Below are positions 6,417-24,954 of a DNA stretch of 42,768 nucleotides, piece by piece (position 1 is the stretch's first letter; each line of letters opens with the position of its first letter). The stretch covers positions 1 through 42,768 of the forward strand of contig JAQXJH010000016.1 of assembly GCA_029008595.1 (NCBI GenBank), read 5' to 3'. The stretch comes from Bacillota bacterium (GTDB lineage Bacteria; Bacillota; Clostridia; Oscillospirales; Acutalibacteraceae). The notes below the pieces were generated by a model that saw nothing but the letters and a program-made list of their open reading frames with translations, was not told the DNA's origin and did not search any database. Position numbers and translations under genes: made by a program.

Positions 6417-7178
6417 TTACGCGAGTCTCTGCGCGATCTCCAGTGCAATGCGCAGGTAGCGCTCTTTTTCTTCGGCAGGCAGCCGGCCGAGGATGCGGGG
6501 ATCCCAGCGCGAACCGCTCAGACTGTCTGCCGCATAAAGGAACTGATAGACTTCGGCGCCGCGGAATTGCGCGGCTGCCATCACGGAGGCGCACTCCATC
6601 TCAACGGTCAGGCAGCCCTGCTTCAGGCGCCGCGCCGCGTTCGTTCTTGTTTCGCGGTAGATTGCGTCGGTCGTCCATGTCTTTCCGTACAGATACGGCA
6701 CGCCGATCTCGTCGAGCAGTTCGCCGAGGCGCCCGGCCGTCGGGATATCGACAAAATCTCCGTCCGAGGCGGAAAGATAGTGGTAACTGGTTCCCTCGTC
6801 ACGGAACGCCGCGGTCGGCACCATGACGCGGCCGGCTGTCAGATCCCGATCCAATGCGCCGCAGGAGCCGTAAAACAGCACCTTTTTTGCGCCCTTGGCC
6901 AGAACCTCTTCCAGCAGGCCTGCCGAAGCGGCTCCGCCGATCAGCGACTGATAGACGCCGATGGTCTTTCCGCTGCGGCGGACGGCGATGATTGGCAGCT
7001 CCATTCCGGCGCGCAGGGTGTCGATCTGCACTGCGCCGGGCAGCTGCGTGGCCAGATCGGTCACCGAACGGCTGAATCCGGTAACGAGAACCTCCGGAAA
7101 GCCGTCCGGTTTTGAGACAAGCTGCTCCGGCCGGATGATCTCCTCGCCGGAAGCGTCAAAAGTTTCCAGAATGCTCAT
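6417..7178 (-). CDS. nucleoside phosphorylase (PNP/UDP family)
   Basis: A 253-residue member of the purine/uridine phosphorylase superfamily. Visible family signatures are the phosphate-binding loop region (VLFYGSCGALDRDL), and the substrate-site stretch VEMECASVMAAAQFRG, in which the M-E-C/G segment contacts the ribose. A Y-A-A-D-S-L segment takes the place of the usual S-D segment near the C-terminus. It would split nucleosides with phosphate to give base and ribose-1-phosphate. The exact nucleoside is not clear; it is shorter and more divergent than DeoD or Udp. Its start overlaps the end of the EamA gene by 23 bases, so the two are translationally coupled. Its ribosome site is AAAGGAG. 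Confidence 0.8.
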   Translation of the reverse strand: MSILETFDASGEEIIRPEQLVSKPDGFPEVLVTGFSRSVTDLATQLPGAVQIDTLRAGMELPIIAVRRSGKTIGVYQSLIGGAASAGLLEEVLAKGAKKVLFYGSCGALDRDLTAGRVMVPTAAFRDEGTSYHYLSASDGDFVDIPTAGRLGELLDEIGVPYLYGKTWTTDAIYRETRTNAARRLKQGCLTVEMECASVMAAAQFRGAEVYQFLYAADSLSGSRWDPRILGRLPAEEKERYLRIALEIAQRLA

Positions 7179-8028
7179 GAGCGGAACGCTCCTTTCCCTG
7201 TTTTTTTAATTGCCCCAATAAAGTGGCCCCCAGAATCAGGAGGGCGCCGGCAGCCTGCAGCACGTTCATCGGTTCGCCGAGCAGCAGTGCCGAACAAAGA
7301 ATGGCGGTAACGGGGTCAATATAGCTGCAAAGCGCAACGCTCTGCGCACTGAGCCCCTGCATCGCCGAAAAATAGAGCAGATAAGCCAGGCCGGTGTGCA
7401 CCACGCCGGAAATCAGCAACGGCCAGAACGAAGCGGCAGGAAACGCCGTCGGCAGCTGACCGGTCAGGCAGACATACGGCAGCAGAACCAACGCTGCAGC
7501 GCCGAGCTGGGCCACCGTGGTATCCATCGCGCTGATCTCTTTCAGAAACCGGCTGATGATCATGACGGAGGCATAAAGCGCTGCAGCACCCAGCGCAAGA
7601 GCCGCGCCGCGAAGATCGCCGCCGAAGCCGCCCGGGATCACCTGCGTCACCAGCGCCATCCCCGCGAGCGAAACAGCGGCACAGACAGCGCGCGCAGCCG
7701 TCAGCCGCTCGTGCAGCACGAACGGAGAAAGCAGCATCACGAATACCGGAGCGGTGTAATAGCAGACCGTAGCCGCGGCGATGGTCGTATAGCGGTAGGC
7801 TTCGAACAGCAGGATCCAGTTAAAGCCGATCGCCGCGCCGGAAACCGCCAGCGGCAGCGCATTTTTCCGCAGCGCTGCAAAGGATATTCTTCTGTGCAGA
7901 AGCAGCCCGGCCGCCAGCAGGAACACGGTGCCGATCACGCCGCGAACCAGAGCGATCATGCCGGAGGAAAGATCGATCCGGCGCACGACCGGACCGATGC
8001 TGCCGAAAATCATCATGGACGCGGCCAT
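7156..8028 (-). CDS. EamA/DMT family transporter
   Basis: A roughly 290-residue polytopic membrane protein with ten predicted hydrophobic helices in two EamA repeats, the drug/metabolite transporter fold. Substrate unknown. The start is awkward: the first ATG at 8028 falls inside the first helix (MAASMMIFGSIGPVVRR), and the same frame continues upstream with a family-like charged N-terminus (TENRIRNNRRAVPLLQ) to a GTT codon at 8079-8077, eight bases after GAAAGGAAG, with no ATG, GTG or TTG. The true start may therefore lie at a non-standard codon. It overlaps the following nucleoside phosphorylase gene, which suggests a possible role in moving nucleosides or bases, but this is only context. 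Confidence 0.83.
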   Translation of the reverse strand: MAASMMIFGSIGPVVRRIDLSSGMIALVRGVIGTVFLLAAGLLLHRRISFAALRKNALPLAVSGAAIGFNWILLFEAYRYTTIAAATVCYYTAPVFVMLLSPFVLHERLTAARAVCAAVSLAGMALVTQVIPGGFGGDLRGAALALGAAALYASVMIISRFLKEISAMDTTVAQLGAAALVLLPYVCLTGQLPTAFPAASFWPLLISGVVHTGLAYLLYFSAMQGLSAQSVALCSYIDPVTAILCSALLLGEPMNVLQAAGALLILGATLLGQLKKQGKERSAHEHSGNF

Positions 8029-10059: not shown

Positions 10060-11157
10060 ATGGCGTCACAAGTTCTGTTTGCCCCAATGGCTTATGCCCG
10101 CTATGAAGCAACGCAGACGCTTCCCGCAAAATTTTCGCGCATGCTCAAAAAGAGCGGACTTGCCGAACGGGTAAAGGGAAAAACCGTCGCGATCAAAATG
10201 CATGTCGGCGAAGGCATCACCTATTCCACCATTCCGCCGGTGTTCATTCGCATTCTGGTCGACTTTCTTAAGGAAAACGGCGCGGAATGCTTTATTACCG
10301 ATCATTACGTTTCGGCGCGCCACCCCGAACAGCGCGGTTATACCGAAAGCAATCTCGGCTGCCCGATTTTAGACGACTGCTCTTATTTCGGAAAATACTT
10401 TTACACGAAGGAAGTCGATTACAAAAAGCTGCGTCATATCGATGTGGCAGGGCTGATTTACGATGCGGATTTTCTGATTGATTTTTCGCACGTCAAAGGT
10501 CACGGCAGCTGCGGCTTCGGCGGAGCGTGCAAGAATATTGCAATGGGCTGCGTAACAGACCGCACCCGTCACGAAATCCACTCACTGGAGGGCGGCCTTG
10601 TGTGGGACAAGGAAAAATGCATCCACTGCGGTAAATGTATCCCCGCCTGCAACCATCATGCAAATTCCTTTTCCGAGGGCGGCGCAAAGGGCGAATACAA
10701 AGTGAATTACCACCACTGCACCATGTGCCAGCACTGCCTGAAGGTCTGCCCGGTGCATGCGATCACACTCGATTCGCACGATTATGCCGATTTCCAGATG
10801 GGGATGGCGGTCTGCACCAAGTCTGTGCTGGACACCTTTGAGCCGGGCAATACGTATTTTATCAATGTGCTGACTGCAATCACCGCGCTCTGCGACTGCT
10901 GGGGCATGACAACGCCGTCTCTCGTGCCGGATATCGGCATCATGGCGTCGGACGATATCGTTGCAATCGAACGCGCCAGCATCGATGCGATCAAAATGGA
11001 AGACCTGATCCCCACCGGCGTTCCGGAGGGGATGGAGCTGGGCACGGAAGGCCATCTGTTCCAGCGGCTGCACGGCAAAAACCCCTATATCCAGCTCGAC
11101 TGCCTGCAGAAGGTCGGCCTGGGAACGCAGGATTATGAGCTTGTCACCGTAAAATAA
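10060..11157 (+). CDS. DUF362 protein with inserted 2x[4Fe-4S] ferredoxin domain
   Basis: A 365-residue protein. The N- and C-terminal parts form the DUF362 domain (KMHVGEG, ITDHYVSARHPE, and a late DIGIMASDDIVAIERASIDA). Between them sits a bacterial ferredoxin insert with Cys187, 190, 193, 197 and Cys220, 223, 226, 230, for two [4Fe-4S] clusters. Family members occur widely in anaerobes; a precise reaction is not established, but electron transfer is expected. No signal peptide, so cytoplasmic. It is a single-gene unit with its own promoter and terminator. The start at 10060 follows GAAAGGGA by ten bases. Confidence 0.88.
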   Translation: MASQVLFAPMAYARYEATQTLPAKFSRMLKKSGLAERVKGKTVAIKMHVGEGITYSTIPPVFIRILVDFLKENGAECFITDHYVSARHPEQRGYTESNLGCPILDDCSYFGKYFYTKEVDYKKLRHIDVAGLIYDADFLIDFSHVKGHGSCGFGGACKNIAMGCVTDRTRHEIHSLEGGLVWDKEKCIHCGKCIPACNHHANSFSEGGAKGEYKVNYHHCTMCQHCLKVCPVHAITLDSHDYADFQMGMAVCTKSVLDTFEPGNTYFINVLTAITALCDCWGMTTPSLVPDIGIMASDDIVAIERASIDAIKMEDLIPTGVPEGMELGTEGHLFQRLHGKNPYIQLDCLQKVGLGTQDYELVTVK

Positions 11158-11387: not shown

Positions 11388-12389
11388 TTATGCCATGTGC
11401 GCAAGCATTTCTTCGGTCACTTCGTAAAGGGGCTTTTCCCCGGAGTGCACCCGGTCAAATTCCTGCAGCATGTAAAGCGACATCCGCTGCACCTCGTCGC
11501 CCTTGCTGCCGGCAATATGCGGCGTCAGAAAAACGTTCGGCATCGAATAAAACGGATGGCCGGGCTGCGGCGGTTCGGGCCAGGTGACGTCCAGCAGCGC
11601 GGTGGCGTCCGGTTTTTCCTGCAGCGCGCGGACAAGGTCTTCCTCCACGACCTGAGCGCCGCGCCCGGTGTTGATAAAGGTGGCGTTGTCCTTCATCCGG
11701 GAGAAGCACGTTTCGTAATTCAGCATCCCGACGGTCTGCGCATTGTTCGCCAGATGGTTGGAGATCGTCTGGCATTCCGCAAAGATCGTTTCGAGCGGCG
11801 CTTTGGTGACCTGCAGTTCGGCCGCGCGCTCGTCCGAAAGAAAGGGATCGAACACCAGAACCTCCAGCCGGTAGGCCTTCAGCATCCGGATCACCAGCGT
11901 GCCGATCTGCCCGGCGCCGAGGATCCCGATACGGCACCCGTAGTTGCCGGGGAACAGGGATCCGTACGGATAAGAATGCTTTGTGTCGCCGCAGCTGTGG
12001 TACCGTGCCGCCTGAAAATATCCGGTATTGGCCAGAATGATCTGCGCGACGGTGAATTCCGCGACCGGAACGGCGTTGGCTGCCCACGCGCTGAATACCC
12101 GCACGCCGCAGTGCAGAAACGGCTTTGCGAACGCCTGTACGGAACCGGCAGCATAATAAACCTCCCGGACATTCGGCAGGTACTGCCGGATCTCCTCCTC
12201 GCTGAAAGCCGGCATGCCCCATGTGGAAAAGATCGCATCCGCTTCGGCCAGCTCGCCGGTATGGGATCTCCAGTTTTCTCCGGTGAACACCTGCTCCGTG
12301 TCCAGCCCGGCCTTTTTCTGCAGCTCCGAGCGGGTCTCCGCCGGATAAACGTTCCGGATGGCATTGCCGCCCATCAAAACGCTTTTCAT
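11388..12389 (-). CDS. D-2-hydroxyacid dehydrogenase family protein
   Basis: A 333-residue NAD-dependent oxidoreductase. The NAD-binding loop is GILGAGQIG (155-163), followed by VLVFDPF whose Asp181 suggests NAD preference. The catalytic residues expected for the family are visible: Arg243 (NTGRG), Glu272 (TWPEPPQP) and His291 (TPHIAGS). It interconverts a 2-oxoacid and a D-2-hydroxyacid; the substrate is unknown. It is the last gene of the five-gene leftward operon, 20 bases after the TIM-barrel gene. The ATG at 12389 follows GAGAGGTG by seven bases; 17 open codons further upstream overlap the previous gene and are not used. Confidence 0.92.
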   Translation of the reverse strand: MKSVLMGGNAIRNVYPAETRSELQKKAGLDTEQVFTGENWRSHTGELAEADAIFSTWGMPAFSEEEIRQYLPNVREVYYAAGSVQAFAKPFLHCGVRVFSAWAANAVPVAEFTVAQIILANTGYFQAARYHSCGDTKHSYPYGSLFPGNYGCRIGILGAGQIGTLVIRMLKAYRLEVLVFDPFLSDERAAELQVTKAPLETIFAECQTISNHLANNAQTVGMLNYETCFSRMKDNATFINTGRGAQVVEEDLVRALQEKPDATALLDVTWPEPPQPGHPFYSMPNVFLTPHIAGSKGDEVQRMSLYMLQEFDRVHSGEKPLYEVTEEMLAHMA

Positions 12390-12409
12390 TGTAATACACC
12401 TCTCAAAAT

Positions 12410-13189
12410 TTAATCGGCAGCGCCGCAGGCCGTTGTCCATTCCAGCAGGGTGGCGGCTGTTTCGGGCAGCGTTTCGATCCTGTCGTCATGCATGAACTCC
12501 AGCAGCAGCGCGTGGTCTCCGCCGCCGAAAATCTGCAGATACTGCTGCCAGCGGTCGCTGTGGTGCCGCAGCGGGAACCGGAGCAGCTCGCCGTGATCCA
12601 TTTCCCACGAGAAAACATGCAGATTCGTGGTGAACGGCGCAAGCAGCTTTGCGGCCTGCAGATTGTATTCCGGTGAGCGGTTCTGGTTCGGCTGCCAGTA
12701 CATCGTCAGAAAAGGGCTGCCGACCGCGCGGAGAAAACGAAGAGAAGCTTCCGCGTCGTCGGTCAGCGTATTCGGGTGGCATTCCAGCGAGAGCCTGACG
12801 CCGCTCTCTTCCGCCATATGGGCCAGCCGGCGCGCCTCGCCGGTCAACCGGTCCAGTGCGGCTCCGTCCAGCTCCGAACTGCCCTGCCGCCCTGCCCAGA
12901 TGCGGATCACAGGCGCATCCAGCCATTGCGCCGTGCGGAGATACGGCGCAAAATCCTTCTCCGGATCGGTCGATTCGCCAAGGCGGTAATAGCTGCCGTA
13001 GGCTGCCGTCTGCAGGCCGTTTGCCTGCATCATCGCCCGAACCTCCAGCGCCTTCTGTTTTTCATCCGGCGGAACGTGTACGTCGCTGCCCCATTCGATC
13101 GACCGAAGCCCGCAGGAACGAACTGCGGCAACGATCTCTTCCGCCGTATTCTTCCGGAATGATATGGATACCAGTCCTGTGCGGAACAT
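12410..13189 (-). CDS. sugar phosphate isomerase/epimerase-like TIM-barrel protein
   Basis: A 259-residue protein of the AP-endonuclease-2/xylose-isomerase-like TIM-barrel superfamily. Conserved strand ends that usually hold the metal are seen: SIEWGSDVHV, LSLECHPNT (Glu and His), MYWQPNQN and LLLEFMHDD. Members isomerise or epimerise sugars, keto-inositols and 3-keto-glycosides, or split them. The specific reaction cannot be read. The ATG at 13189 follows AAAGGAG by nine bases; an ATG three codons earlier abuts the ribosome site and is unlikely. Fourth gene of the operon, 56 bases after the flavoprotein gene. Confidence 0.85.
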   Translation of the reverse strand: MFRTGLVSISFRKNTAEEIVAAVRSCGLRSIEWGSDVHVPPDEKQKALEVRAMMQANGLQTAAYGSYYRLGESTDPEKDFAPYLRTAQWLDAPVIRIWAGRQGSSELDGAALDRLTGEARRLAHMAEESGVRLSLECHPNTLTDDAEASLRFLRAVGSPFLTMYWQPNQNRSPEYNLQAAKLLAPFTTNLHVFSWEMDHGELLRFPLRHHSDRWQQYLQIFGGGDHALLLEFMHDDRIETLPETAATLLEWTTACGAAD

Positions 13190-13245
13190 GAAGATCATCT
13201 CCTTTATCCGGCATTCTGCCGTCCGATCCTCTGCTGCGCGGAGGA

Positions 13246-15198
13246 TCAGTAAACGTTGCCGTCCTCGCGGAAGCGGCGCCATACGTTTTCAAAAAATCCG
13301 CCGCCCTCCGGCAGGGGACGAACCGGGCGAAAGCCGCTTCTGCAGCCCTGCGCGTCGAACGAAACCTCCTGAACCAGAGCGTCCAGCGCTCCGTCGTCCG
13401 GTTCAAAGCGGAATTCCTCCAGCCCTCTGGGCGCAATTCCGGAGTCGGAACGGTAGATCGCCGATCCGCGCGATTTGCCGCCTTTTTTCACATAGTCCTG
13501 CATGGCGGTCAGATACATGATCTGCGAGATCAGAATATCGCGCAGGCGATAGGCGTTTGCCAGACCGCCTTCCGTGGAGGCGCGGACGGTCTCCTTCAAC
13601 CGGCCGAGCTGAAGCCGGTTCTGTTCGATCACGGCGGCAAAACCGTCCGGATCGCGGATCGCGCCGCCGACCCGGCTCATTTCCGCCTGTGCTTTGCGCA
13701 TCAGGGAACCGACGTTTTCCGTTTCCCCGAACACCGCGCGGCAGAACTGAATATTTTCGCTGACACCGGCGTGCACCGCATCGCAGAATTCCCCGGCGGA
13801 AATCGCCGCCGCAGGATGACGCAGAATATATTCCGCAGCGCGTGTGGAGCCGACCTGCCCGGCGTTCAGCGCACTGCCGCCGGGACGGTACACGCCGTGG
13901 CTGCCGACAACCTCGCCCGCGGCAAACAGGCCGGGGATCTCCGTCTGCCACCAGAGATCGGCCGCCGCTCCGCCGTTGTTGTGCTGCGCACAGAGGGCGA
14001 TCTCCAGCCGCTGGGTCTTCAGATCGACGCCCTTGGAACGGTACAGCTCCACCGCAGGCTCATTCATGTGCATCAGCCGCTCGATCGGCGTGCCGAAGCA
14101 CGCTTCGGCGTTTTTCAGATAGTCATATGCTTCAGGCGCAAGCGTCTCAAACGGCAGCGTTTCCAGCCCGAACGGGTTGCGGCGAAAATCGAGAAAAACC
14201 TTTCTGCCGCGCAGAACAGTCTCCCGGTACACCAGAAGATCCACGACGGACGAGCCGTTCCGAGCTTTCCGGCTGTCGAACGGCCACTCGTATCCTTTTT
14301 TGAATACGGCCGAAAGGCAGCTGCTGACGTCCGGGTCGTATTCCGCCAGAAATTCGTGCTCGGTTCCGTCCGGTTCGACCGAAACAAACGTCGGAAGCAC
14401 CTGCATATAAGTGCCGGAAACATTCCAGCGCGGCGCTTTGGAAGCCAGACCGTACTGCCATTCCGTCAGATTTTTTCCTTTTACGCCGGCTTCGAACAGA
14501 ACGCCGCTGCTGCCGAAATGGCCGCAGGGATAAACGGTGTCGGCATAGATCCCGGCAGGCCCGCCCGTTGCAAAGATGATGTTTTCGCAGCGCAGCAGCA
14601 CAAAGCGGTCGGCTTCGCTGCGGCAGCCGTTCAGTCTGAGCGCCAGAAGCCCGCAGACCCTGTCTTTCCATTTTAAAATTTTTACCGCCAGCAGCCGGTC
14701 GAGCACCGTGATCCCCCGCTCTTCTGCGGCGGCCTGCAGGCATTCGGTCATCAGCTTGGAGGTCAGCGGTCCGGCCGAGGTCGCCCGTGTGCGCGGGTCA
14801 TGGTCGGTTTTGTAGCCGACGTATTCGCCGTAGCGGTTGACCGGAAACGGAACGCCCAGCTCCGCCAGATGCAGAAAGCACCGGACGGAAAGCGCGGCTT
14901 CCGCGTAGGCGATGTCGCCGTCCACGCATTTTCCCGCAAACAGGTCTTCGGCCATGGCGTGCGGAGAATCGGGACTGTCTCCGCTCAGGCTGAGCTTATA
15001 ATAGGTTTGTTTGTCGGAACCGGTATTGCGGGAGGTTCCGGCGGTGACCCCTTCGGTCACGATCGCAATATCCTTCATGCCGCCGTCAAAAAGGCGCAGT
15101 GCCGCGTTGTAGCCCGCCGCCCCCGTACCGACGACGACCGTGTCCAGCTTTGCCGCGGGGATCTGAACGCCGTCAAAGTCAAAGGTCTCCCATTTCAC
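13246..15198 (-). CDS. FAD-dependent oxidoreductase, fumarate reductase/succinate dehydrogenase flavoprotein family
   Basis: A 650-residue flavoprotein. The FAD-binding fold is at about 20-36 (VVVGTGAAGYNAALRL), with the family loop TAGTSRNTGSD at about 52-62, an IIFATGGPAGIYADT return strand, and the C-terminal FAD contact region RPGGSALNAGQVGSTRAAE. There is no signal peptide, Tat motif or FMN-binding domain, so it acts in the cytoplasm and not as a periplasmic respiratory reductase. It starts at GTG (15198), nine bases after AAAGGA; an ATG between them is out of frame. Relatives reduce or dehydrogenate C=C or C-O bonds next to activating groups. Third gene of the operon, 29 bases after the dehydrogenase gene. 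Confidence 0.9.
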   Translation of the reverse strand: MKWETFDFDGVQIPAAKLDTVVVGTGAAGYNAALRLFDGGMKDIAIVTEGVTAGTSRNTGSDKQTYYKLSLSGDSPDSPHAMAEDLFAGKCVDGDIAYAEAALSVRCFLHLAELGVPFPVNRYGEYVGYKTDHDPRTRATSAGPLTSKLMTECLQAAAEERGITVLDRLLAVKILKWKDRVCGLLALRLNGCRSEADRFVLLRCENIIFATGGPAGIYADTVYPCGHFGSSGVLFEAGVKGKNLTEWQYGLASKAPRWNVSGTYMQVLPTFVSVEPDGTEHEFLAEYDPDVSSCLSAVFKKGYEWPFDSRKARNGSSVVDLLVYRETVLRGRKVFLDFRRNPFGLETLPFETLAPEAYDYLKNAEACFGTPIERLMHMNEPAVELYRSKGVDLKTQRLEIALCAQHNNGGAAADLWWQTEIPGLFAAGEVVGSHGVYRPGGSALNAGQVGSTRAAEYILRHPAAAISAGEFCDAVHAGVSENIQFCRAVFGETENVGSLMRKAQAEMSRVGGAIRDPDGFAAVIEQNRLQLGRLKETVRASTEGGLANAYRLRDILISQIMYLTAMQDYVKKGGKSRGSAIYRSDSGIAPRGLEEFRFEPDDGALDALVQEVSFDAQGCRSGFRPVRPLPEGGGFFENVWRRFREDGNVY

Positions 15199-15227
15199 GG
15201 GGATCCATCCTTTCTGTCGTGATAAAA

Positions 15228-15983
15228 TTATAATTTACGGATGTGCATGCCGCCGTCCACAAGGATGGACTGGCCCGTGGTGTAGCCGAGCGCGCCGCTG
15301 CACAGGATCTCCACCGCTTTTGCAATGTCCTCCGGTTCTCCCCAGCGTGCGATCGGGATCAGCCCTTCGCTGATCAGGCGGTCGTATTTTTCCTGTACGG
15401 CGGCCGTCATTCCGGTGCGGATCACGCCGGGACAGATCTCGTTCACGGGGATCCCCTCGGCGGCGAGACGGTCGGCAAACAGCATGGTGATCATGGAAAC
15501 GCCCGCCTTCGAAATGCAGTATTCGCCGCGGCTGACCGAGCTGGTGTAGGCCGAGCAGGAAGAAATATTGACGATATAGCCGCGCGCGCCGTCCAGCTTT
15601 TCCTGCCGGATCATCTGGCGGGCGGCAAGCTGCGTCAGAAAGAGCGTTCCCTTGGTGTTGATCCCCATGACGAAATCGTAGCTTTCTTCGGTCATTTCCA
15701 GAAGGTCGCGGCGAACCTTGGGCGCAACGCCGGCCACATTGACCAGAGCGTCCAGCCTGCCGTTCTGTCCGACGACCGTGCGGATCAGGCGTTCACGGTC
15801 TTCGCTGTCGCTCAGGTTTCCCTGAAGATAGCAGCAGTCCGCAAGACCATCAAATTTTTCTGCCGCGCGCTCCGCGGGCAGAACATCCATACCGAAAACA
15901 TACCAGCCTTTTTCCAGCAATTGTTTCACTGTGGCAAAGCCGATCCCGCCGGCGGCGCCGGTAACAAGAGCAGTCTTTTTCAT
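15228..15983 (-). CDS. short-chain dehydrogenase/reductase
   Basis: A 251-residue classical SDR. The cofactor loop is TGAAGGIG (8-15), with N-V-A-G at about 82-85, and the active site Ser142, Tyr155 and Lys159 (GEYCISKAG). Asp33 after the second strand (FGMDV) points to NAD(H). It ends in the family GQSILVDGGMHI segment. It probably interconverts a secondary alcohol and a ketone on the operon's substrate. The ATG at 15983 has AAAGGAG eleven bases upstream; the long open frame beyond overlaps the previous gene antisense-like and is not coding. Second gene of the operon. Confidence 0.93.
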   Translation of the reverse strand: MKKTALVTGAAGGIGFATVKQLLEKGWYVFGMDVLPAERAAEKFDGLADCCYLQGNLSDSEDRERLIRTVVGQNGRLDALVNVAGVAPKVRRDLLEMTEESYDFVMGINTKGTLFLTQLAARQMIRQEKLDGARGYIVNISSCSAYTSSVSRGEYCISKAGVSMITMLFADRLAAEGIPVNEICPGVIRTGMTAAVQEKYDRLISEGLIPIARWGEPEDIAKAVEILCSGALGYTTGQSILVDGGMHIRKL

Positions 15984-16059
15984 GGCAAAGATTCTCCTTT
16001 GATCGTTGTATTTCATCATATTTTTGCAGTCCGCGGATTCCGGCAGGGAACCGGCGGGC

Positions 16060-17376
16060 TTATTTATTCCGGCAGAACTGCCGGTAAAGCGGGAGATAAG
16101 TCCCGCTGTCGCGCACGACGCAGCCCGGGGTACCGCCGGCCCGCATGATCTCGGTGCATTTTCCGCAGGTGATGCAGAGCTTTTTCGGGTCCAGCGCACC
16201 GTTGGTGCAGATATCCTTTGCGGCGTCCGGATAGGCGATGGATTCGCGGCCGTAGCCGGCAAAATCAAACCATCCTTCGTCGATGCACGCCGCCGTAACG
16301 TTCGGGGAAACGGCGCCCAGCCAGCTGATTCCGGAACAGATCAGCGGGATCCCGACGGCCCGGCGGATCTTTGCCGTGCCGGTGAGCATTCTTGCAACGC
16401 CGCAGAGCGGGTGCTCCGGCGGATCGTATGTTCCTGCGGCGAACGGCCGGTTGATGTGCGGATTGAAATACGGATTGCCCATTGTGATGTCGATCATGGG
16501 CATCCCGATCTGTTCCAGAGCCTGCACCAGTGCGATCGCTTCGGAAAGCTCCGGCTCTGTGCCGCCGTCCGGGCTGACGCCAAAGCCGTTCGGATACGCA
16601 AGCCCGTCATAAGCGTTCAGACGGGAGGTGATGATAAAATCGCGGCTGCAGCGCGAAACGGCGTCTGCGGCAGTCTGGCGGAGCATCCGGGTCCGGTTTT
16701 CAAAGCTGCCGCCGTATTTGCCGGGGCGCTGATAGGCCGAAAGCAGCTCGCTGAGCAGGTAGCGGTGGCAGGACTTGATGTCTGCGCCGTCAAAACCGGC
16801 TTTCTGCGCGAGCAGAGCGCCCGCGGCCAGTTTTTCGCTGACGCGGTCCAGCTCATCGTCGCTGATGATGCGCGAATCGTCGACCGGGGCTTTTTCCTCC
16901 AGCACCGGGTTATGATAAGCGATGATCGGTTCCGGTACGCCGTTCGGCTTGCTGTAGCGCCCGGAATGGGTCAGCTGGCAGAAAACGACCGGCTCAAACC
17001 CGTTTTCCTTCAGGCAGGTCTCCTTGATCTCTTCCACAATGTTCCGGAATGCGTCCAGCGTGTTCTCGTTCAGGAACATCTGGCGCGGATTTGCGCGGCC
17101 TTCGTTTACCACCGCGGTCGCTTCAAACCAGATCAGCCCCGCGCCGCCTCCGGCAAAACGGAGATAGCGCCGGCGGGTCAGTTCGCCGGGAACCCCTTCC
17201 GCCGTGCCGTCGCAGCCTTCCATCGCCTGATAAACGATGCGGTTTGCAAACCGCTTGCTGCCAACCTGCAGCGGCTGCGCGAGCGCTTGTGCCGATGCGC
17301 CGAACGGCAGGCTGACGCCGGTCTGTTCGCAGGCGGCCCGAAAGCTTTCCGGATTCATCAGAATGTTTTGTGCCAT
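16060..17376 (-). CDS. NADH:flavin oxidoreductase (Old Yellow Enzyme-like) with Fe-S motif
   Basis: A 438-residue protein consisting of the FMN-binding TIM barrel of the OYE/2,4-dienoyl-CoA reductase family. Visible signatures are FANRIVYQAMEG (43-54), FCQLTHSGR (132-140), the active-site strand KSCHRYLLSELLS (201-213) and KYGGSFENRTR. Near the C-terminus Cys401-x2-Cys404-x2-Cys407-x11-Cys419 matches the [4Fe-4S] site of the dienoyl-CoA reductase branch. The usual C-terminal FAD/NAD(P)H domains of that branch are absent, so the electron donor must be another protein. Such enzymes reduce activated C=C bonds. First gene of the operon; the ATG at 17376 follows AAAGGAAG by seven bases. Confidence 0.9.
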   Translation of the reverse strand: MAQNILMNPESFRAACEQTGVSLPFGASAQALAQPLQVGSKRFANRIVYQAMEGCDGTAEGVPGELTRRRYLRFAGGGAGLIWFEATAVVNEGRANPRQMFLNENTLDAFRNIVEEIKETCLKENGFEPVVFCQLTHSGRYSKPNGVPEPIIAYHNPVLEEKAPVDDSRIISDDELDRVSEKLAAGALLAQKAGFDGADIKSCHRYLLSELLSAYQRPGKYGGSFENRTRMLRQTAADAVSRCSRDFIITSRLNAYDGLAYPNGFGVSPDGGTEPELSEAIALVQALEQIGMPMIDITMGNPYFNPHINRPFAAGTYDPPEHPLCGVARMLTGTAKIRRAVGIPLICSGISWLGAVSPNVTAACIDEGWFDFAGYGRESIAYPDAAKDICTNGALDPKKLCITCGKCTEIMRAGGTPGCVVRDSGTYLPLYRQFCRNK

Positions 17377-17503: not shown

Positions 17504-17531
17504 TTGCAGTTTTTCAAAATTATTATATAAT
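17504..17531 (+). promoter_or_regulatory. promoter of the AraC regulator gene
   Basis: -35 TTGCAG (17504-17509), 16-base spacer, -10 TATAAT (17526-17531). The inverted AGGCGAATATT element ends four bases upstream of the -35. Confidence 0.65.
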
Positions 17532-17601
17532 GAAACGGAGAACGCTTTCTATATTGCTTTTGTTGAAAAATATGCAGATCTTGCTGAAATGAGGGAAAAC
17601 C

Positions 17602-18390
17602 ATGAACTGCATCACCAGCGTGACCTACAGCTCGCTTTCGTCCGGGTTTGCGGCCCATTCCCACGACGAACACGAATTGATCCTTCTCTGTTCCGGAACG
17701 GCGCTGTTCCGGACTTCCGCCGGGGAACAGCTGATCCGGGCGCCGTCGCTCGTTTCGATCGGGCATCTGGAAAAACACGCCGTTACCGCCTGCGGAGAGT
17801 ATGAACGGTATGTTGTAACGCTGCGGCCGGAACAGCTTTCGGCGGGCAGCGAACGCCTGCAGATGTTTTTTGCGCCGCAGTTTCAGACGATCGGCGTGGG
17901 AACGGTCATGGAACCGCTGCAGACGCTGTTCCGGCTGCTGCTGGAGGAATTCCGCCGCGGGGAAGAACCGGCCGACGGCATGGTGTGGCTGCTGGAATCC
18001 GCCCTGCTGCTGCTTTACCGCAGCTTTCCGCAGTATTTTCCGGCAGGAACAGGTGTGGCTCAGACGGTTCGCGCCGCGCAGAATATTCTGGAACGCGATC
18101 TGAGCCGGAAGATTGCGCTGGACGAGCTTGCCGGGCAGCTCCACATCAGCGTCTGGCACCTTTCGCACAGCTTCAAGGCGATCACCGGATACGGCGTTCT
18201 GCAGTACCGTCAGATGGTGCGGCTGGCGGCGGCCTGTGAGCTGCTGGCGCAGACGGACGAGAGCATTTCGGCTGTCTGCGAAAAATCAGGATTTTCGGAC
18301 GCGAGCGGCTTTGCGCGCCAGTTCAGAAAAAGCCTTGGCTGCACCCCGCGGGAATACCGGCGGCAGTTCCGGCGACGGGAGGATTCCTGA
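17602..18390 (+). CDS. AraC family transcriptional regulator (cupin sensor)
   Basis: A 262-residue regulator. The N-terminal part is an AraC-type cupin sensor: HSHDEHELILLCSG and IRAPSLVSIGHLEKHAV are the paired strand motifs that hold a small ligand. The C-terminal 100 residues are the double helix-turn-helix, with IALDELAGQLHISVWHLSHS as the first and ISAVCEKSGFSDASGFARQF as the second, followed by GCTPREYRR. It is divergent from the five-gene redox operon and likely activates it in response to the substrate. The ATG at 17602 has GAGGG seven bases upstream. It converges on the next gene with ten bases between the stops. Confidence 0.94.
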   Translation: MNCITSVTYSSLSSGFAAHSHDEHELILLCSGTALFRTSAGEQLIRAPSLVSIGHLEKHAVTACGEYERYVVTLRPEQLSAGSERLQMFFAPQFQTIGVGTVMEPLQTLFRLLLEEFRRGEEPADGMVWLLESALLLLYRSFPQYFPAGTGVAQTVRAAQNILERDLSRKIALDELAGQLHISVWHLSHSFKAITGYGVLQYRQMVRLAAACELLAQTDESISAVCEKSGFSDASGFARQFRKSLGCTPREYRRQFRRREDS

Positions 18391-18400
18391 AACGGCCGCA

Positions 18401-20686
18401 TTACTGCATCACCTTGCGGTAGCTGCCCGGCGTTACGCCGTAAACCTTTTTGAAGCTCCGGATAAAGACGGCGCTGGAGGTAAAACCGCACTGTTGGGCG
18501 ATCTGTTCCAGAGAATCCGTTGTTTCCGTCAGCTGTTTGCAGGCGTGGCTGACCCGCACCGACGAAATATATTCCGGAATGCTCTGGTTCATCTCCTGCT
18601 TGTAAATTTTGGAGCAGTATGCGGCCGAAAGATCGAACTGTTCTCCGATCTCGTTCACGCCGAGATTGACGTTTGCATAATTCTGATCAATGAACTCCCG
18701 GATGGATCTGCCAAGGCTTTTTACCGTGTGATGTTCCAGATATTCGCGGCTGATCTCGCGGATCCGGCGGACAAAATATTCGCGGAATTCGTCGATGGAC
18801 TGATAGGTTTCAACGTTGAGATCGAATTGATGCTCAGCAAACAGGGAACTGCCCTGTGCATCCAGTTCGTTGAGTACCTCGTTCATCTGCATGCAGAGAT
18901 CGAGCACAAAGCTTCTGGCAGCCTCCGGGGTCTGCGGCAGTTTTCCGCCGAAGGAGGAGGCGTAGATTCTGTCGAAAACCGCGAGCGGATCTTCGTCGCC
19001 GTTTTTGATGCACTGAAGTAATGTGATGCGTGTGGTTCCGCCCGGAATAAAATTATAGGTCACACCTTTTCTTGCCGAAAAACTGCGATAGCTGAGAACG
19101 GTTCCGATACCGAAAATCAGCTTGTATTCTTCGGCGCGCCGTGCCTCGTTGTAAGAAAGGCGGACGTCCTGCAGCGAAGAATAGATGTTGCCGATCCCGA
19201 CCGTGCAGGAGATGCCCATTTTCTCCTCCAAAAAGCCGCGCGCCCGTTCGGCAATGGAGGTAAGATCCGCTTCGGTGGTTTCGTCCGCCGGGTTGATCAG
19301 GCAGACAAAGTGATCCGGATCGGTATTGATGACGAAGCCACGGTTCTTTTCGGCGCAGATCTCCTCGATCACATTCGGGAAGATGATCTGTGCCAGCATG
19401 GGCCTTTCGTCGGCGTAATTCAGGGAAAAAACGGCGTTGTTCCATTCTTCGATGCAGAACAGCATGACAGCAAACCGTTCGGAAAGCAGCGATTCGCCAA
19501 ATTCTGCAAACGTGCTTTCGGCCGGACCGTCCGTGGGGACACTGCCGTGGATCAGGTTCTTCACAAGGTTCCCTCTGCGCATTTGCTGAATATCGGCCAG
19601 ATCGGACAGATACTGCTTCTTTTCCACGATCGCGTTTTCAATAATACTTTCGATGTACTGGAACTCTTCCGGCGCTGGGGCTTCGGCGTGCGCTGCCTGA
19701 TTGCTCAGCGGCGTAATGCTCTGCAGAAGATGGCGGACGGGGCGGTAATTGTATTTTGTCAGGAGGAAGGCGAGCAGAACGCCGAACAGCCCGTAAAGGA
19801 TCATATTGATCATGGCGGAGAACTGAAACAGCGAAAGCGACTGATACATGGAGCTGACGGGGACCAGGGCGACATACCGGCAGGATACAAGGCTGGAAGG
19901 CTGCACAAAGGCGCAGTAGGAGACGCCGTCCAGCGTGATCTCCTGAACGCCATTTTTCAGCGCGACGGAAGAAAGATCGGACGTTTCCCCCGGGGAGGAG
20001 GAAAGAAGCGTCTGCCCGTCCTGGTCAATGATCAGCAGATCCCCCTGAATGCTTTCCTGCAGAGCGCCGATCCGTTTCTGCAGATAACCGGCGTGCAGCA
20101 CGCAGATCACCGGATAGGGCGCAGGGGAAAAGACCGGCATCCGCAGCGCCAGCGTCTGCTGGCCGCTGCCGGTCGTAAGCGGGATCAGCTTGTAGGACGT
20201 ATCGTGTTGAAAAAATAAGCTGCTATCGTAGCTACCGGAATAATAGGTGCCAAAGTAATATTCGGGGGAAAGCGCTGCATTGTAGCCGGATACGATCTTT
20301 TCGCTGCCGGGAAGATAGAGGAACAGGTCGCTCAGGCTGTTGCTGCTGATAGAGCGGAGCTTCAGATAAAGGATATACGTTGCATAATCGGAGGTGATGC
20401 CGTTGCTTTCGTCGTCCAGACACTGCAGAACATCGGAATAATCCCGCTGCAGCTCGTTGATCTTGTCCGCGGCGCCGTTCAGATCCTGTTCGACGACCTC
20501 GTAGAACTGGCGGAAGGCGGCGTAATCCACATCCTTGGACTGATCGATCATTCTGCGGTACGCGAACTGATAGATCATCAGAGAAGAGATCAGCGCGATC
20601 AGAATGAAAATGATGTAAGAAAGCAGGATGTGAGAATAATATTTCCGGTTCGTCTTGCCTTTCCTTCTGCCTGTTTTTTCGCCCAT
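18401..20686 (-). CDS. membrane-anchored AraC family regulator with extracytoplasmic sensor
   Basis: A 761-residue one-component sensor. Basic N-terminus, first membrane helix at about 18-42, an extracellular Cache-like region at about 45-285, second membrane helix at about 288-312, a HAMP-like/linker and central region, then a C-terminal AraC helix-turn-helix pair (LGVNEIGEQFDLSAAYCSKI and LEQIAQQCGFTSSAVFIRSF, then VTPGSYRKV). This type is typically encoded beside LplABC/CUT1 sugar importers and regulates them after sensing an outside glycan or the binding protein. The neighbouring divergent importer fits this. The ATG at 20686 follows GGAGG by nine bases. Confidence 0.92.
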   Translation of the reverse strand: MGEKTGRRKGKTNRKYYSHILLSYIIFILIALISSLMIYQFAYRRMIDQSKDVDYAAFRQFYEVVEQDLNGAADKINELQRDYSDVLQCLDDESNGITSDYATYILYLKLRSISSNSLSDLFLYLPGSEKIVSGYNAALSPEYYFGTYYSGSYDSSLFFQHDTSYKLIPLTTGSGQQTLALRMPVFSPAPYPVICVLHAGYLQKRIGALQESIQGDLLIIDQDGQTLLSSSPGETSDLSSVALKNGVQEITLDGVSYCAFVQPSSLVSCRYVALVPVSSMYQSLSLFQFSAMINMILYGLFGVLLAFLLTKYNYRPVRHLLQSITPLSNQAAHAEAPAPEEFQYIESIIENAIVEKKQYLSDLADIQQMRRGNLVKNLIHGSVPTDGPAESTFAEFGESLLSERFAVMLFCIEEWNNAVFSLNYADERPMLAQIIFPNVIEEICAEKNRGFVINTDPDHFVCLINPADETTEADLTSIAERARGFLEEKMGISCTVGIGNIYSSLQDVRLSYNEARRAEEYKLIFGIGTVLSYRSFSARKGVTYNFIPGGTTRITLLQCIKNGDEDPLAVFDRIYASSFGGKLPQTPEAARSFVLDLCMQMNEVLNELDAQGSSLFAEHQFDLNVETYQSIDEFREYFVRRIREISREYLEHHTVKSLGRSIREFIDQNYANVNLGVNEIGEQFDLSAAYCSKIYKQEMNQSIPEYISSVRVSHACKQLTETTDSLEQIAQQCGFTSSAVFIRSFKKVYGVTPGSYRKVMQ

Positions 20687-20934
20687 TTTTGCGATCCTCC
20701 GTTTGGATTTCTGCCCAACTGCGGCCTGACCTGCCCCTGAAAAAAGCATCGTGTCGTTTGTTTATATTCATTATGCCGAAAACGGAGTGTATTTTCAACA
20801 AAAAACAAGAAAAAACTGATGATTTTTATTTATTATCAATCGAATCAAGTTTTTGCAAACTTTCCGGAAGGGGAAACGGCCGCCGTTCCGGCGGAAAAAT
20901 CACGATACCGTTCATGGATTCCGGTTTTTGAACA

Positions 20935-21131: not shown

Positions 21132-22763
21132 ATGAAAAAACGTATGCTTTCCCTTGCTCTGGCTGCGTTGATGTGCGTATCCGTCTTTGCGGGATGCTCC
21201 TCCGGCGCCGCTTCCAGCAGTCCGGCTTCTTCCGCGCAGCCGGATTCCGCCAGCTCCGAAGCCGCAAAGGATGAACTCGGCGCCGATTTCGCCGGTTATC
21301 CGATCAAAACCGATGAAACGATCTCTTTGTATATTCTGGATTCGAACAGCTGCTACTCTGCTCCGGACGGCGTCGACCGTCAGGATAACGAATGGGAAAA
21401 AGGACTGACCGAGCGCCTCGGCGTCAATATTGAGTGGCAGTCCATTCCGGCCGGCAGCGACGCAAATCAGGCCTATAACCTGATGATCGCCGGCGACGAC
21501 CTGCCGGACGTCTTCTACGGCTATGGTATGCCGGGCAGAGCCGCTCAGCTGATCGAGGACGGCAAGGCCATCGCGCTGAACGACCAGCTGGCAACCTACG
21601 CTCCGGCGTACTACAATTTCGTCACCTCCGACGATTCGATCGACAAGGCCGTCAAGGACGATAACGGCAACTACTACGGCTTTGCGTTCCTGCGCGAAAG
21701 CCTGAAGCTCGGCACCTATGCCGGCGCGATCGTCCGCGAGGATCTGCTGACGGAACTCAAGCTGGAAGCTCCGCAGACCATCGCCGATTGGGATAATGTT
21801 CTGCACGCCTTCAAGAATGCCGGCGTCAAATATCCGCTCAGCACGCGCGACAAGCTCCGCGGCATTCTGGAGACCTTTGCCCCCGGCTACGGCTTCGGCC
21901 TGTCGGCCGACTACTTTATTGGCGACGACGGCAAAGTCCATTATGCTTATGCCGAAGCGGGTCTGAAGGATCTGCTCGCGCAGGTGAAAGCCTGGTACGA
22001 TGACGGCCTGATCGATCCGGACTTCATGACCAACGATTCCGCTGCGCTGGAAACCAAGATCCTGAACGGTGAAGTCGGCGCCTGCCGCACCACCGGCGGT
22101 ACGGTTGCCGGTTATGTCACCAAGCTGCAGGCCATGAACTCCTCCATTTCCTGGGTCGCTACGGTCAACGCCGTCGAGAACGCCGGCGACAAGCAGACCT
22201 TCATTCAGGGCGAGACCAACAACATCGGTATTGTCGCGATGGTCACCACCTCCTGCAAGAACGTTCCGCTGGCGCTCCGTGTCATGGACTACGGCTACAC
22301 CGAGGACGGCATGATCTACTACAACTACGGCAGCGAAGACAACTACGATATCGTCGACGGCGATCCGATCTTCAAGGATTCCTTCAACAACGATCCCCGC
22401 GGTGTGACCGTTATGATGCGTACCTATACCGCGATGGCCGGCAACGCTGCAACGCTGAACATGCTTTCAACCTTCAAGGGCTTCACCGAGTTCCGCCAGG
22501 CCTGCGTCAACACCTGGTATGAAGAGTCCGCTCTGAAGCACATTATGCCCGGCTCCATCACCCTCTCCACCGAAGAAAGCGATTCGATCGCCAGCGAAGC
22601 CACCGCGATCGGTGCTTATGCCGGTGAGATGGTCGCCAAATTCATTCTCGGCCAGGAATCCCTCGACAACTTCGACGCATATCTCGCTCAGCTCAACAAT
22701 CTGGGTCTGGAGCATGTGCTGGAAGTCAGACAGGCCGGTTATGAGCGTTACCTGAACCGCTGA
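21132..22763 (+). CDS. extracellular solute-binding lipoprotein (LplA/LipO-type, CUT1)
   Basis: A 543-residue lipoprotein. The signal peptide MKKRMLSLALAALMCVSVFA is followed by a lipobox ending in Cys22 (F-A-G-C), then a Ser/Ala/Pro-rich linker and a large family 1 binding domain with the length typical of LplA-like proteins (500-560). It captures an oligosaccharide or glycoside at the outer membrane-proximal surface of the cell membrane for the two permeases downstream. Two ATGs are possible: 21132 has AGAGG ten bases upstream, whereas 21123 is too close to it. Codon use looks optimised, in line with high expression, and a stable hairpin follows the gene. Confidence 0.92.
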   Translation: MKKRMLSLALAALMCVSVFAGCSSGAASSSPASSAQPDSASSEAAKDELGADFAGYPIKTDETISLYILDSNSCYSAPDGVDRQDNEWEKGLTERLGVNIEWQSIPAGSDANQAYNLMIAGDDLPDVFYGYGMPGRAAQLIEDGKAIALNDQLATYAPAYYNFVTSDDSIDKAVKDDNGNYYGFAFLRESLKLGTYAGAIVREDLLTELKLEAPQTIADWDNVLHAFKNAGVKYPLSTRDKLRGILETFAPGYGFGLSADYFIGDDGKVHYAYAEAGLKDLLAQVKAWYDDGLIDPDFMTNDSAALETKILNGEVGACRTTGGTVAGYVTKLQAMNSSISWVATVNAVENAGDKQTFIQGETNNIGIVAMVTTSCKNVPLALRVMDYGYTEDGMIYYNYGSEDNYDIVDGDPIFKDSFNNDPRGVTVMMRTYTAMAGNAATLNMLSTFKGFTEFRQACVNTWYEESALKHIMPGSITLSTEESDSIASEATAIGAYAGEMVAKFILGQESLDNFDAYLAQLNNLGLEHVLEVRQAGYERYLNR

Positions 22764-22819
22764 TCCATATTCGGCAGCCGGTTTTTGAAGCTTTCGTTTC
22801 TTTTATCTCCTTTCAAGGT

Positions 22820-22848
22820 CGGGAAAAGCGGAAACACCGCTTTTCCCG
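22820..22848 (+). terminator. stable hairpin between binding protein and permease genes
   Basis: A perfect 12-bp stem CGGGAAAAGCGG (22820-22831) with its complement at 22837-22848 and loop AAACA. It lacks a long T run, so it more likely attenuates or protects the binding-protein mRNA from 3' decay than stops transcription fully. Confidence 0.6.
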
Positions 22849-22927
22849 CCTTGGTTTGTATTTTGATGGACAGGAAGAGGAAGCTGTAACCCGATAATTT
22901 TCTTCCGGAAAGGTGTGACCGCAAGTT

Positions 22928-23887
22928 ATGACGAAAGAAAAAGTTTTCTGTTCCATCGGCGTTCGGAAAACGAGCCTTACTTTTGGCCAGCGGCTGAAAA
23001 AAGACTGGAAAAGAAATAAGTACAAATACCTGATCATTCTTCCTGTTTTAGTCTTCCTCGCAATTTTTGCGTACAAGCCGATGTACGGGATCGTAATCGC
23101 CTTCAAAGACTACCGCCCCTCGATCAGCATTGCAGAAAGCAAATGGGTCGGGCTGAAATATTTCAAGCAGTTTTTCAACGATCAATACTGTTTCCGCATC
23201 CTGCGCAATACGTTCTTTCTGGGCGGCGGCAGCCTGCTGTTCGGTTTCTGGGTTCCGATCGTTTTTGCGCTGCTGCTCAACGAGATCCGCAACACCCATT
23301 TCAAAAAAATTGTTCAGACAACCACATACCTTCCGCATTTTATTTCTATCGTCGTTCTCTGTTCCATGCTGAAGCTGTTCTGCGCGAACGAAGGCCTGAT
23401 CACCGAACTGGCGGTGGCGTTGGGCGCCAAACGGGAGCCGTTACTGCAGAATCCGAAGTACTTCCGCCCGATCTATTACATTTCGGGCATCTGGCAGAGT
23501 TTCGGCTGGGACTCCATTATTTACCTTGCCGCGCTGACCTCGATCGACAGCGCGCTCTATGAAGCGGCGGATATTGACGGCGCCGGCCGCTGGGCAAAGA
23601 TGTGGCACATTACGCTTCCCGGCATCAAGACGCAGATCGTTCTTCTGCTGATCCTTGCCATGGGCGGCATTCTGGGTGCCAACTTTGAAAAAGTCCTGAA
23701 TCTGTACAACGATCTGACGATGGAAGTGGCGGACGTTATTTCAACATATACGTACCGGATCGGTCTGCAGAACGGAAGCTACAGCTACGGAACGGCGATC
23801 GGTCTGTTCAACACGCTGGTCAACGTTACCTTCGTTATGGCGGCAAACGCGATCGGCAAAAAAGTCGGCGACGTCGGCCTGTTCTGA
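22928..23887 (+). CDS. ABC sugar transporter permease, LplB-type
   Basis: A 319-residue integral membrane permease with six hydrophobic helices, the first at about 36-53 (LIILPVLVFLAIFAY). The coupling loop motif is present (LYEAADIDGAGRWAKMW...LP), which docks the ATPase. N-terminal motif KPMYGIVIAFKDY and length are typical of the LplB/YtcP group. It pairs with the next gene to form the channel for the lipoprotein's ligand. No ATPase gene is nearby; a shared MsmK-type ATPase elsewhere is expected. The ribosome site AAAGGTG is rather far from the ATG at 22928, so the start may be less efficient. Confidence 0.92.
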   Translation: MTKEKVFCSIGVRKTSLTFGQRLKKDWKRNKYKYLIILPVLVFLAIFAYKPMYGIVIAFKDYRPSISIAESKWVGLKYFKQFFNDQYCFRILRNTFFLGGGSLLFGFWVPIVFALLLNEIRNTHFKKIVQTTTYLPHFISIVVLCSMLKLFCANEGLITELAVALGAKREPLLQNPKYFRPIYYISGIWQSFGWDSIIYLAALTSIDSALYEAADIDGAGRWAKMWHITLPGIKTQIVLLLILAMGGILGANFEKVLNLYNDLTMEVADVISTYTYRIGLQNGSYSYGTAIGLFNTLVNVTFVMAANAIGKKVGDVGLF

Positions 23888-23916
23888 TCTGATAACGAAA
23901 GGAAGGAATCGCTTCT

Positions 23917-24807
23917 ATGGCAAAAGAGATAACAGGCAAGCGCAGCAAAATCGGCGTGTTCGACGTTGTAAATACGGTCATTATGCTGTTCCTCGTCTTT
24001 ATTACGCTCTATCCGTTTTACCATATCGTCTGCGCTTCGTTCAGCAACAGTACGCTGCTTGCTGCCCACAAGGGCTTTCTTCTGAAACCGGCAGGCTTTG
24101 ATCTCGGCGCGTACAAGCTGACGTTCAACCACCCGCTGATCTGGAGCGGCTACCGCAATATTCTGATCATTCTTTGCATCGCCCTGCCCTATCAGCTGCT
24201 GATGACGCTGCTGTGCGGCTATTTTATGTCCTGCCAGGGCATGATGTTCAAGAAAATTATCATGGCGCTGATCATGTTCACCATGTTCTTCGGCGGCGGT
24301 CTGATCCCAACGTATCTGAACATCCGTTCGCTCGGCCTGTACAACAGCATCTGGTCGCTGATCCTGCCGAGCGGGCTGAGCGTTTACAATTCGATCGTCG
24401 TCCGTTCCTCCATCGACGGGATCCCGCGCAGCCTGTTCGAGGCGGCCGAGATCGACGGCGCAAACGACATTTACATCCTGTTCCGCATCGTTCCGAGCCT
24501 GATTATGCCGACTCTGGCGGTGATTCTGCTTTGGTGCGGCGTCGGCCACTGGAACGCCTGGTTCAATGCAATGATCTATATCAAGGATAACGATAAGCTG
24601 CCGATTCAGGCGGTACTGCGTGCCGTTCTGATCGCCAACCAGAAGCTGAGCAGCGAGACCACCATGCAGGACGACCAGTTCAACAGCTATGCGGAAACCA
24701 TCAAGTATTCGATCATTGTGATCGGCACGCTGCCGATCCTCTGCGTCTACCCGTTCCTGCAGAAATACTTTGTCAAGGGCGTTATGCTCGGCGCCGTAAA
24801 AGGATAA
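23917..24807 (+). CDS. ABC sugar transporter permease, LplC-type
   Basis: A 296-residue permease with six hydrophobic helices and the second-subunit coupling loop (LFEAAEIDGANDIYILFR). It starts 29 bases after the first permease with an AAGGAAGGA ribosome site and ends with the family segment LPILCVYPFLQKYFVKGVML. Together with the previous permease and the lipoprotein it completes a CUT1 importer lacking its own ATPase. A hairpin with a T run follows the stop, so the next gene may be expressed at a lower level. Confidence 0.93.
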   Translation: MAKEITGKRSKIGVFDVVNTVIMLFLVFITLYPFYHIVCASFSNSTLLAAHKGFLLKPAGFDLGAYKLTFNHPLIWSGYRNILIILCIALPYQLLMTLLCGYFMSCQGMMFKKIIMALIMFTMFFGGGLIPTYLNIRSLGLYNSIWSLILPSGLSVYNSIVVRSSIDGIPRSLFEAAEIDGANDIYILFRIVPSLIMPTLAVILLWCGVGHWNAWFNAMIYIKDNDKLPIQAVLRAVLIANQKLSSETTMQDDQFNSYAETIKYSIIVIGTLPILCVYPFLQKYFVKGVMLGAVKG

Positions 24808-24828
24808 GCGTTTCAGAAAATTTCACAA

Positions 24829-24867
24829 ACTGCGCGGGGAATTCCGGTTTTCTGCGCAGTACTTTTT
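24829..24867 (+). terminator. partial terminator after the permease genes
   Basis: ACTGCGC (24829-24835) pairs with GCGCAGT (24854-24860), followed shortly by five T (24863-24867). The loop is long. Read-through into the Gfo/Idh gene is plausible. Confidence 0.6.
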
Positions 24868-24954
24868 CGCAAAACGCCGGGTTTCCGGCTGACCATACAA
24901 TTCAGCGCGGTTTTCCCGCGGGGAACCGCCGGACAGAACTGGAGGAATCAGATA

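Follow-up and report, generated by a model that had tools for sequence, protein, structure and literature searches.

A conserved OYE, SDR and flavoprotein redox operon in an Acutalibacteraceae genome and its tentative role in sugar-acid breakdown

The window analysed here is the whole 42,768-nucleotide stretch of contig JAQXJH010000016.1 (assembly GCA_029008595.1, Bacillota bacterium, Acutalibacteraceae). Its subject is a five-gene operon for an old yellow enzyme (OYE)-type FMN protein, a short-chain dehydrogenase/reductase (SDR), an FrdA-fold flavoprotein, a xylose-isomerase-like TIM barrel, and a D-2-hydroxyacid dehydrogenase. The operon is real, and it represents a widespread redox module for which the searches made turned up no described function. 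It likely converts an unusual plant sugar acid to a common metabolic intermediate by a chain of redox steps. Sugar-acid catabolism feeding 2-keto-3-deoxygluconate (KDG) is the best-supported setting; the substrate and the order of reactions we infer. Our tentative reading, with a probability of about 0.37, is that the operon is a breakdown route for such an acid, in which the OYE-type protein, the SDR, and the flavoprotein turn a predicted delta-4,5-unsaturated hexuronic acid into KDG.

The operon and its conserved unit

The preliminary description had drawn a closely spaced five-gene operon on one strand, from 11388 to 17376, with a terminator and a divergent AraC regulator, and the span is exact to the base. 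All genes are coded on the minus strand and run from 17376 to 11388; they are spaced 76, 29, 56, and 20 bp apart. The first (17376–16060, 438 aa) codes for the OYE-type FMN protein, in which four cysteines form an Fe-S-like motif (Pfam Oxidored_FMN, 83.2 bits), and the second (15983–15228, 251 aa) for the SDR (adh_short_C2, 167.8 bits). They are followed by the genes of the flavoprotein (15198–13246, 650 aa, GTG start; FAD_binding_2), the TIM barrel (13189–12410, 259 aa; AP_endonuc_2), and the D-2-hydroxyacid dehydrogenase (12389–11388, 333 aa; 2-Hacid_dh_C). All five Pfam matches exceed their cut-offs. The predicted terminator is a long stem-loop with a T-run closing its 3′ arm (11346–11288, minus strand), found in a fold of the 117 bases past the last gene and absent from the output of a simple terminator scan. 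The AraC-family regulator (17602–18390, plus strand, 262 aa; HTH_18 86.4 bits, AraC_binding 29.4 bits) is divergent to the operon.

A protein search with the flavoprotein returned at least 7,997 relatives. A single scan across genome contigs gave 566 confirmed relatives, and the best 80 of these were used; their hosts are gut and digester Clostridia, Spirochaetes, Halanaerobium, one Bifidobacterium, and others. Also added were loci L115 and L120–L122, 26 of 27 out-of-family matches, and 13 more in-family regions. Removal of two near-identical loci reduced 123 loci with the flavoprotein to 121, a sample that favours close relatives and has 6 kb on both sides in 68/121. The SDR gene is on the same strand within 3 kb of the flavoprotein gene in 101/121 loci and the OYE gene on the same strand within 6 kb in 88/121; the two occur together in 88/121, which exceeds chance. 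The hydroxyacid dehydrogenase was found within 8 kb in 40/121 loci, the TIM barrel in 36/121, and all five genes together in 31/121. The OYE, SDR, and flavoprotein genes (the triad) are thus the unit, found in Clostridia, Spirochaetes, and Halanaerobium, and the other two are optional additions. The isomerase and the hydroxyacid dehydrogenase, on which the earlier interpretation relied, therefore do not belong to the core. The idea of a multi-step redox operon that relatives share is supported, and no close characterised pathway was found.

The OYE-type protein has the motif C-x2-C-x2-C-x11-C (C401, C404, C407, C419) and KSCHRY at 201. The four cysteines and KSCHRY are invariant in 25 aligned relatives, with K201/R205 kept in 25/25. 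Its earlier naming as an FMN/Fe-S protein agrees with the FMN barrel and the cysteine motif, but the barrel is the sole domain found by Pfam. The protein has no recognised NAD(P)H domain, so electron supply through the Fe-S-like motif is predicted. It stays under the NCBIfam cut-offs of mycofactocin OYE2 (94.8/793.15 bits), bilirubin reductase (86.4/750), and BaiCD (57.3/825). The flavoprotein matches the FrdA fold over its whole length, but is only 18–20% identical to the FrdA/L-aspartate oxidase family, and it is far below all the NCBIfam cut-offs listed, among them those of L-aspartate oxidase (84.1/452.75 bits), SdhA/FrdA (57.6/567.3), and flavocytochrome c (35.8/285.45). Its HGxxR motif is invariant in 24/24 flavoproteins; this motif and K201/R205 of the OYE-type protein presumably suit an anionic substrate, as in FrdA and OYE chemistry. 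The SDR has YCISK at 155. It alone among the five reaches an NCBIfam cut-off (NF009386, named 3-ketoacyl-ACP reductase; 288.6 bits, cut-off 250). The D-2-hydroxyacid dehydrogenase has GAGQIG, NTGRG, and TPH motifs and an NAD-binding domain (PF02826, 145.4 bits, cut-off 25.1).

By profile, Foldseek, and VIA, the closest solved relative of the TIM barrel is AsbF, a 3-dehydroshikimate dehydratase (PDB 3dx5), at 19% identity. Art22 is tied with AsbF in Z (26.9 vs 27.6). Y67, R96, E136, H138, H191, and E231 are kept in 12/12, and six of the nine compared AsbF active-site residues are retained in the window barrel.

The sugar-acid setting and a candidate route

Among the ring compounds proposed beforehand (plant phenolic, cyclitol, or oxidised sugar), the oxidised sugar fits best, because sugar-acid genes recur near the triad; a cyclitol or cyclitol acid is less probable. 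A pair of KDG kinase and 2-keto-3-deoxy-6-phosphogluconate (KDPG) aldolase is near the flavoprotein in 7/121 loci (L046, L049, L058, L070, L092, L128, L152). The aldolase marker also matches short proteins (e.g., in L045), so pairs were counted only with both kinase and aldolase markers. The L128 operon contains the pair, its genes following one another on one strand as OYE, aldolase, kinase, SDR, flavoprotein, and hydroxyacid dehydrogenase. Pfam recognised neither KDG kinase nor KDPG aldolase among the window genes scanned. Uxa/Uxu genes are within 10 kb in 7/121 loci (L043, L051, L072, L091, L100, L108, L109), and an IlvD-type dehydratase is near the flavoprotein in 11/121; the KDG pair, Uxa/Uxu, or the IlvD-type occurs in 23/121. 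UxaE, glucuronate isomerase, tagaturonate reductase, and mannonate dehydratase were confirmed by family, and the names UxaA, UxuB, and some IlvD and transporter names come from sequence reading with marker similarity. Heparinase-II/III-like proteins are coded in 23/121 loci, 18 of these among the 31 five-gene loci, and TTT, TRAP, GPH, or Liv transporter markers are found in 25/121. The commonest Pfam families among 99 scanned neighbours, 96 drawn from a list of 197 and three more taken from L072, are Gfo/Idh (10) and AP_endonuc_2 (9). The likeness to hexuronate-to-KDG catabolism lies in these neighbours and in the resemblance of the window SDR to KduD. The textbook route is not known to involve two flavoproteins, and the missing KduI match of the source genome is a further difference.

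Among 300 genomes of the family, a flavoprotein match (E < 1e-50) is present in 61 and absent from 239. UxaC is present in 58/61 of the former and 110/239 of the latter (p 8.6e-14); among RhaA-negative genomes the counts are 13/13 and 45/159. The source genome (G000) has UxaC at C35:10523–11890 and also RhaA, and no match to KduI (PF04962), GH67, GH115, or GH88 was found in it. Although the source genome is without KduI, the flavoprotein as a plain KduI substitute was ruled out, as KduI is enriched with it. For unsaturated-uronyl hydrolases and GH115, the comparison covered 40 genomes from the 61 with a strong flavoprotein match and 40 from the 110 with UxaC and no such match. The hydrolases, over cut-off in 25/80 (15/40 with, 10/40 without the flavoprotein), were dropped as a partner.

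In the proposed route, the unsaturated acid would be released by a lyase and then imported. The SDR would turn its allylic hydroxyl at C3 into a ketone, by analogy with the action of shikimate dehydrogenase on the isosteric carbocycle, with an AroE-like or Zn-dependent dehydrogenase as a possible extra partner elsewhere. The metal-dependent barrel would eliminate a group beta to the ketone or isomerise the product, and conjugated C=C bonds would be reduced by both flavoproteins, the FrdA-type one gripping the carboxylate via R438. The remaining keto groups would be set by the SDR and the D-2-hydroxyacid dehydrogenase, and KDG would pass to KDG kinase and KDPG aldolase.

By chemical reasoning that leaves stereochemistry aside, a delta-4,5-unsaturated hexuronate may be seen as shikimate with the C6 methylene exchanged for a ring oxygen; both would share a six-membered ring, a C=C bond in conjugation with the carboxylate, and a hydroxyl in allylic position. 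With the hexuronate as an isostere, the clues to uronates and KDG and those to shikimate could describe one substrate class, and the AsbF-like barrel together with the accessory shikimate-dehydrogenase-like gene described below suggests a shikimate-like ring. It is a rather doubtful extension that gut Clostridia use shikimate-type chemistry on unsaturated sugar acids, with enzymes like shikimate dehydrogenase and dehydroshikimate dehydratase acting on the hexuronate and the triad then reducing the pyranone-type enone formed, as the equol enzymes do the pyranone ring of daidzein, and giving KDG by a further unsaturated-uronate route with two flavoproteins. If the triad handles unsaturated or modified uronates, it would be a missing step in the use of acidic plant polysaccharides by herbivore and human gut bacteria, and the enzyme logic of equol formation would be tied to common sugar-acid metabolism.

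Several results weigh against this route to KDG. None of the KDG pair, Uxa/Uxu, and IlvD-type genes is nearby in 98/121 loci, and Pfam recognised no lyase gene in the window operon. The SDR misses the KduD cut-off (TIGR01832; 147.4 bits, cut-off 338.85). D172, H175, and K200 of AsbF are replaced in the window barrel. One of them, D172, is a metal ligand; PMC9324987 gives the ligands as Glu142, Asp172, and Glu253, and the barrel retains E136 and E231 (the latter placed by eye) but has Q166 for D172 in 12/12. The genome-level p values ignore kinship. RhaA, the control, is enriched too (48/61 vs 80/239, p 2.3e-10), and among genomes with RhaA, UxaC differs but weakly between the two groups (45/48 vs 65/80, p 0.066), so a general plant-sugar lifestyle accounts for part of the signal. 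KduI is enriched rather than depleted (39/61 vs 66/239, p 3.3e-7), and the unsaturated-uronyl hydrolases gave the small difference reported above.

Alternative substrates and distant relatives

Quinate or shikimate is an improbable substrate, although several findings fit it. Once a dehydrogenase had made 3-dehydroshikimate, this enone acid would be the substrate of the barrel and of both flavoproteins, with reduced cyclohexane acids as products. The AsbF-like barrel fits this reading. A shikimate-dehydrogenase-like gene on the flavoprotein's strand within 8 kb is coded in L073, L098, and L120, where TRAP genes are also near. The proteins of L073 and L098 are 55.7% and 56.9% identical to that of L120. 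Shikimate_dh_N genes number 2, 2, and 4 in the three genomes, respectively, so the locus gene is an extra copy. AroE matches in L133 and L076 (28%) were not counted as such copies. This close AroE relative is, however, in 3/121 loci only and under the NCBIfam cut-offs listed (best 205.2/252 and 191.2/200.2 bits), the sole Shikimate_dh_N gene of the source genome is outside the window, and a carbocyclic acid would account neither for the KDG kinase and KDPG aldolase genes of the L128 operon nor for the heparinase-like neighbours. Just as doubtful is another modified hexuronate, 4-O-methylated or glycosidically bound, which the flavoprotein would oxidise beside the carboxylate, so that a 3-keto-type elimination frees the substituent and leaves a plain uronate for UxaC. 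Fold matches that would speak for it are common in the barrel's superfamily, and xylan glucuronidases were rejected as the bacteria's own source of methylated uronate, with GH67 in 4/300 genomes and GH115 in 5/80 (4/40 with, 1/40 without the flavoprotein).

An inositol-type cyclitol, oxidised and cleaved to join the hexuronate route, is very unlikely. An IolM-like Zn-dehydrogenase is near the flavoprotein in 13/121 loci, but it misses the IolM cut-off (226.5 bits, cut-off 450), and the heparinase-like genes are left unexplained. The Rhizobium relative described below, with LacI, two Gfo/Idh, an ABC substrate-binding protein, a sugar kinase, and an aldolase nearby, would suit a cyclitol. Least probable of all is a plant phenolic reduced as in equol formation. 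PMC4381290 describes three contiguous genes for daidzein to equol, of the NADH:flavin oxidoreductase, SDR, and succinate-dehydrogenase-like families (DZNR, DDR, THDR), and by Pfam the same families are adjacent in the window. The earlier comparison with equol formation is thus good at the level of family only, and the window differs in adding the barrel and the hydroxyacid dehydrogenase. A phenolic substrate is unsupported: sugar-acid genes recur near the triad, and the OYE-type protein and flavoprotein are over the cut-off of no characterised NCBIfam family. Literature searches of open-licence papers gave no account of the triad, a uronate/OYE link, cyclitol, demethylation, or quinate routes, or the E. 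coli island described next.

The E. coli flavoprotein is 35.8% identical over 99% of the query, and its operon is between ytfB and rplI (L112:10069–18345 and L116:4070–12348), an uncharacterised-looking acid operon. Annotated there are a divergent TetR, an SDR, a sugar phosphate isomerase/epimerase, an enoyl-CoA hydratase-like protein, a CoA transferase, an FAD-binding protein, and an MFS transporter. Like the window, it combines the flavoprotein with an SDR (35.8%) and a gene annotated as AP_endonuc-type within a single operon; unlike the window, no OYE is listed, and a crotonase-like protein, a CoA transferase, and an MFS transporter are present instead. The 10.7 kb stretch is at least 80% covered in 1,037 of 5,426 complete genomes. 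The flavoprotein of Rhizobium sp. CCGE532 is 39.2% identical, and near it are LacI, two Gfo/Idh, a CoA transferase, an enoyl-CoA hydratase-like protein, an aldehyde dehydrogenase, an ABC substrate-binding protein, a sugar kinase, and an aldolase. A FadX-like CoA transferase is also near the flavoprotein in the Clostridial locus L082. The flavoprotein may thus have come to serve more than one acid through recruitment.

Regulation, transport and other neighbouring genes

A promoter-like site (TAGAAA-18-TATAAT, 10/12, a consensus match only) is upstream of the OYE gene at 17522–17551 on the minus strand. Relatives of the AraC regulator are within 8 kb of the flavoprotein in 26/121 loci. A possible partner on the plus strand at 21132–25974 consists of ABC transporter genes and a Gfo/Idh dehydrogenase. 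The lipoprotein (21132–22763) was assigned by eye and has no Pfam or NCBIfam match, the permeases (22928–23887 and 23917–24807) have relatives 29–49% identical in 3/121 flavoprotein loci (L067, L071, L079), and the dehydrogenase (24955–25974) was placed by Pfam. Between the operon's AraC gene and the ABC genes is a large AraC-type regulator with a GGDEF_2 domain (18401–20749, minus strand). Just past the operon end, a DUF362 protein with two ferredoxin-type clusters (10060–11157, plus strand) is a possible electron partner. A second FMN/Fe-S protein (DHO_dh + Fer4) recurs beside heparinase-like genes (L071:16189–17412, L079:3654–4883, L053:3908–5134), and two of these three loci also carry relatives of the window's ABC permeases.

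L073 and L098 have TRAP and glycyl-radical-enzyme genes, the latter beside the AroE-SDR-flavoprotein-TRAP set (L073:7885–13759, L098:15482–17884); the first enzyme of L073 passes only the broad PFL2-3 model (742.8 vs 678.2 bits). In L149:1–13214 (G278), two shikimate-dehydrogenase-like genes flank a 3-dehydroquinate dehydratase, recognised by eye, with an OYE-like gene near. An acyl-CoA dehydrogenase, an MFS transporter, and a CoA ligase were also seen there by eye, and this is possibly a quinate/shikimate reduction locus. In L128, a BadF/GlcNAc-kinase-type ATPase (by eye) is coded on the same strand after the hydroxyacid dehydrogenase (6760–7668). The products of L084:211–1218 and L088:5680–6696, the latter with no NCBIfam match at 1e-15, are 43% identical and by eye amidohydrolases, coded near the triad in both loci.

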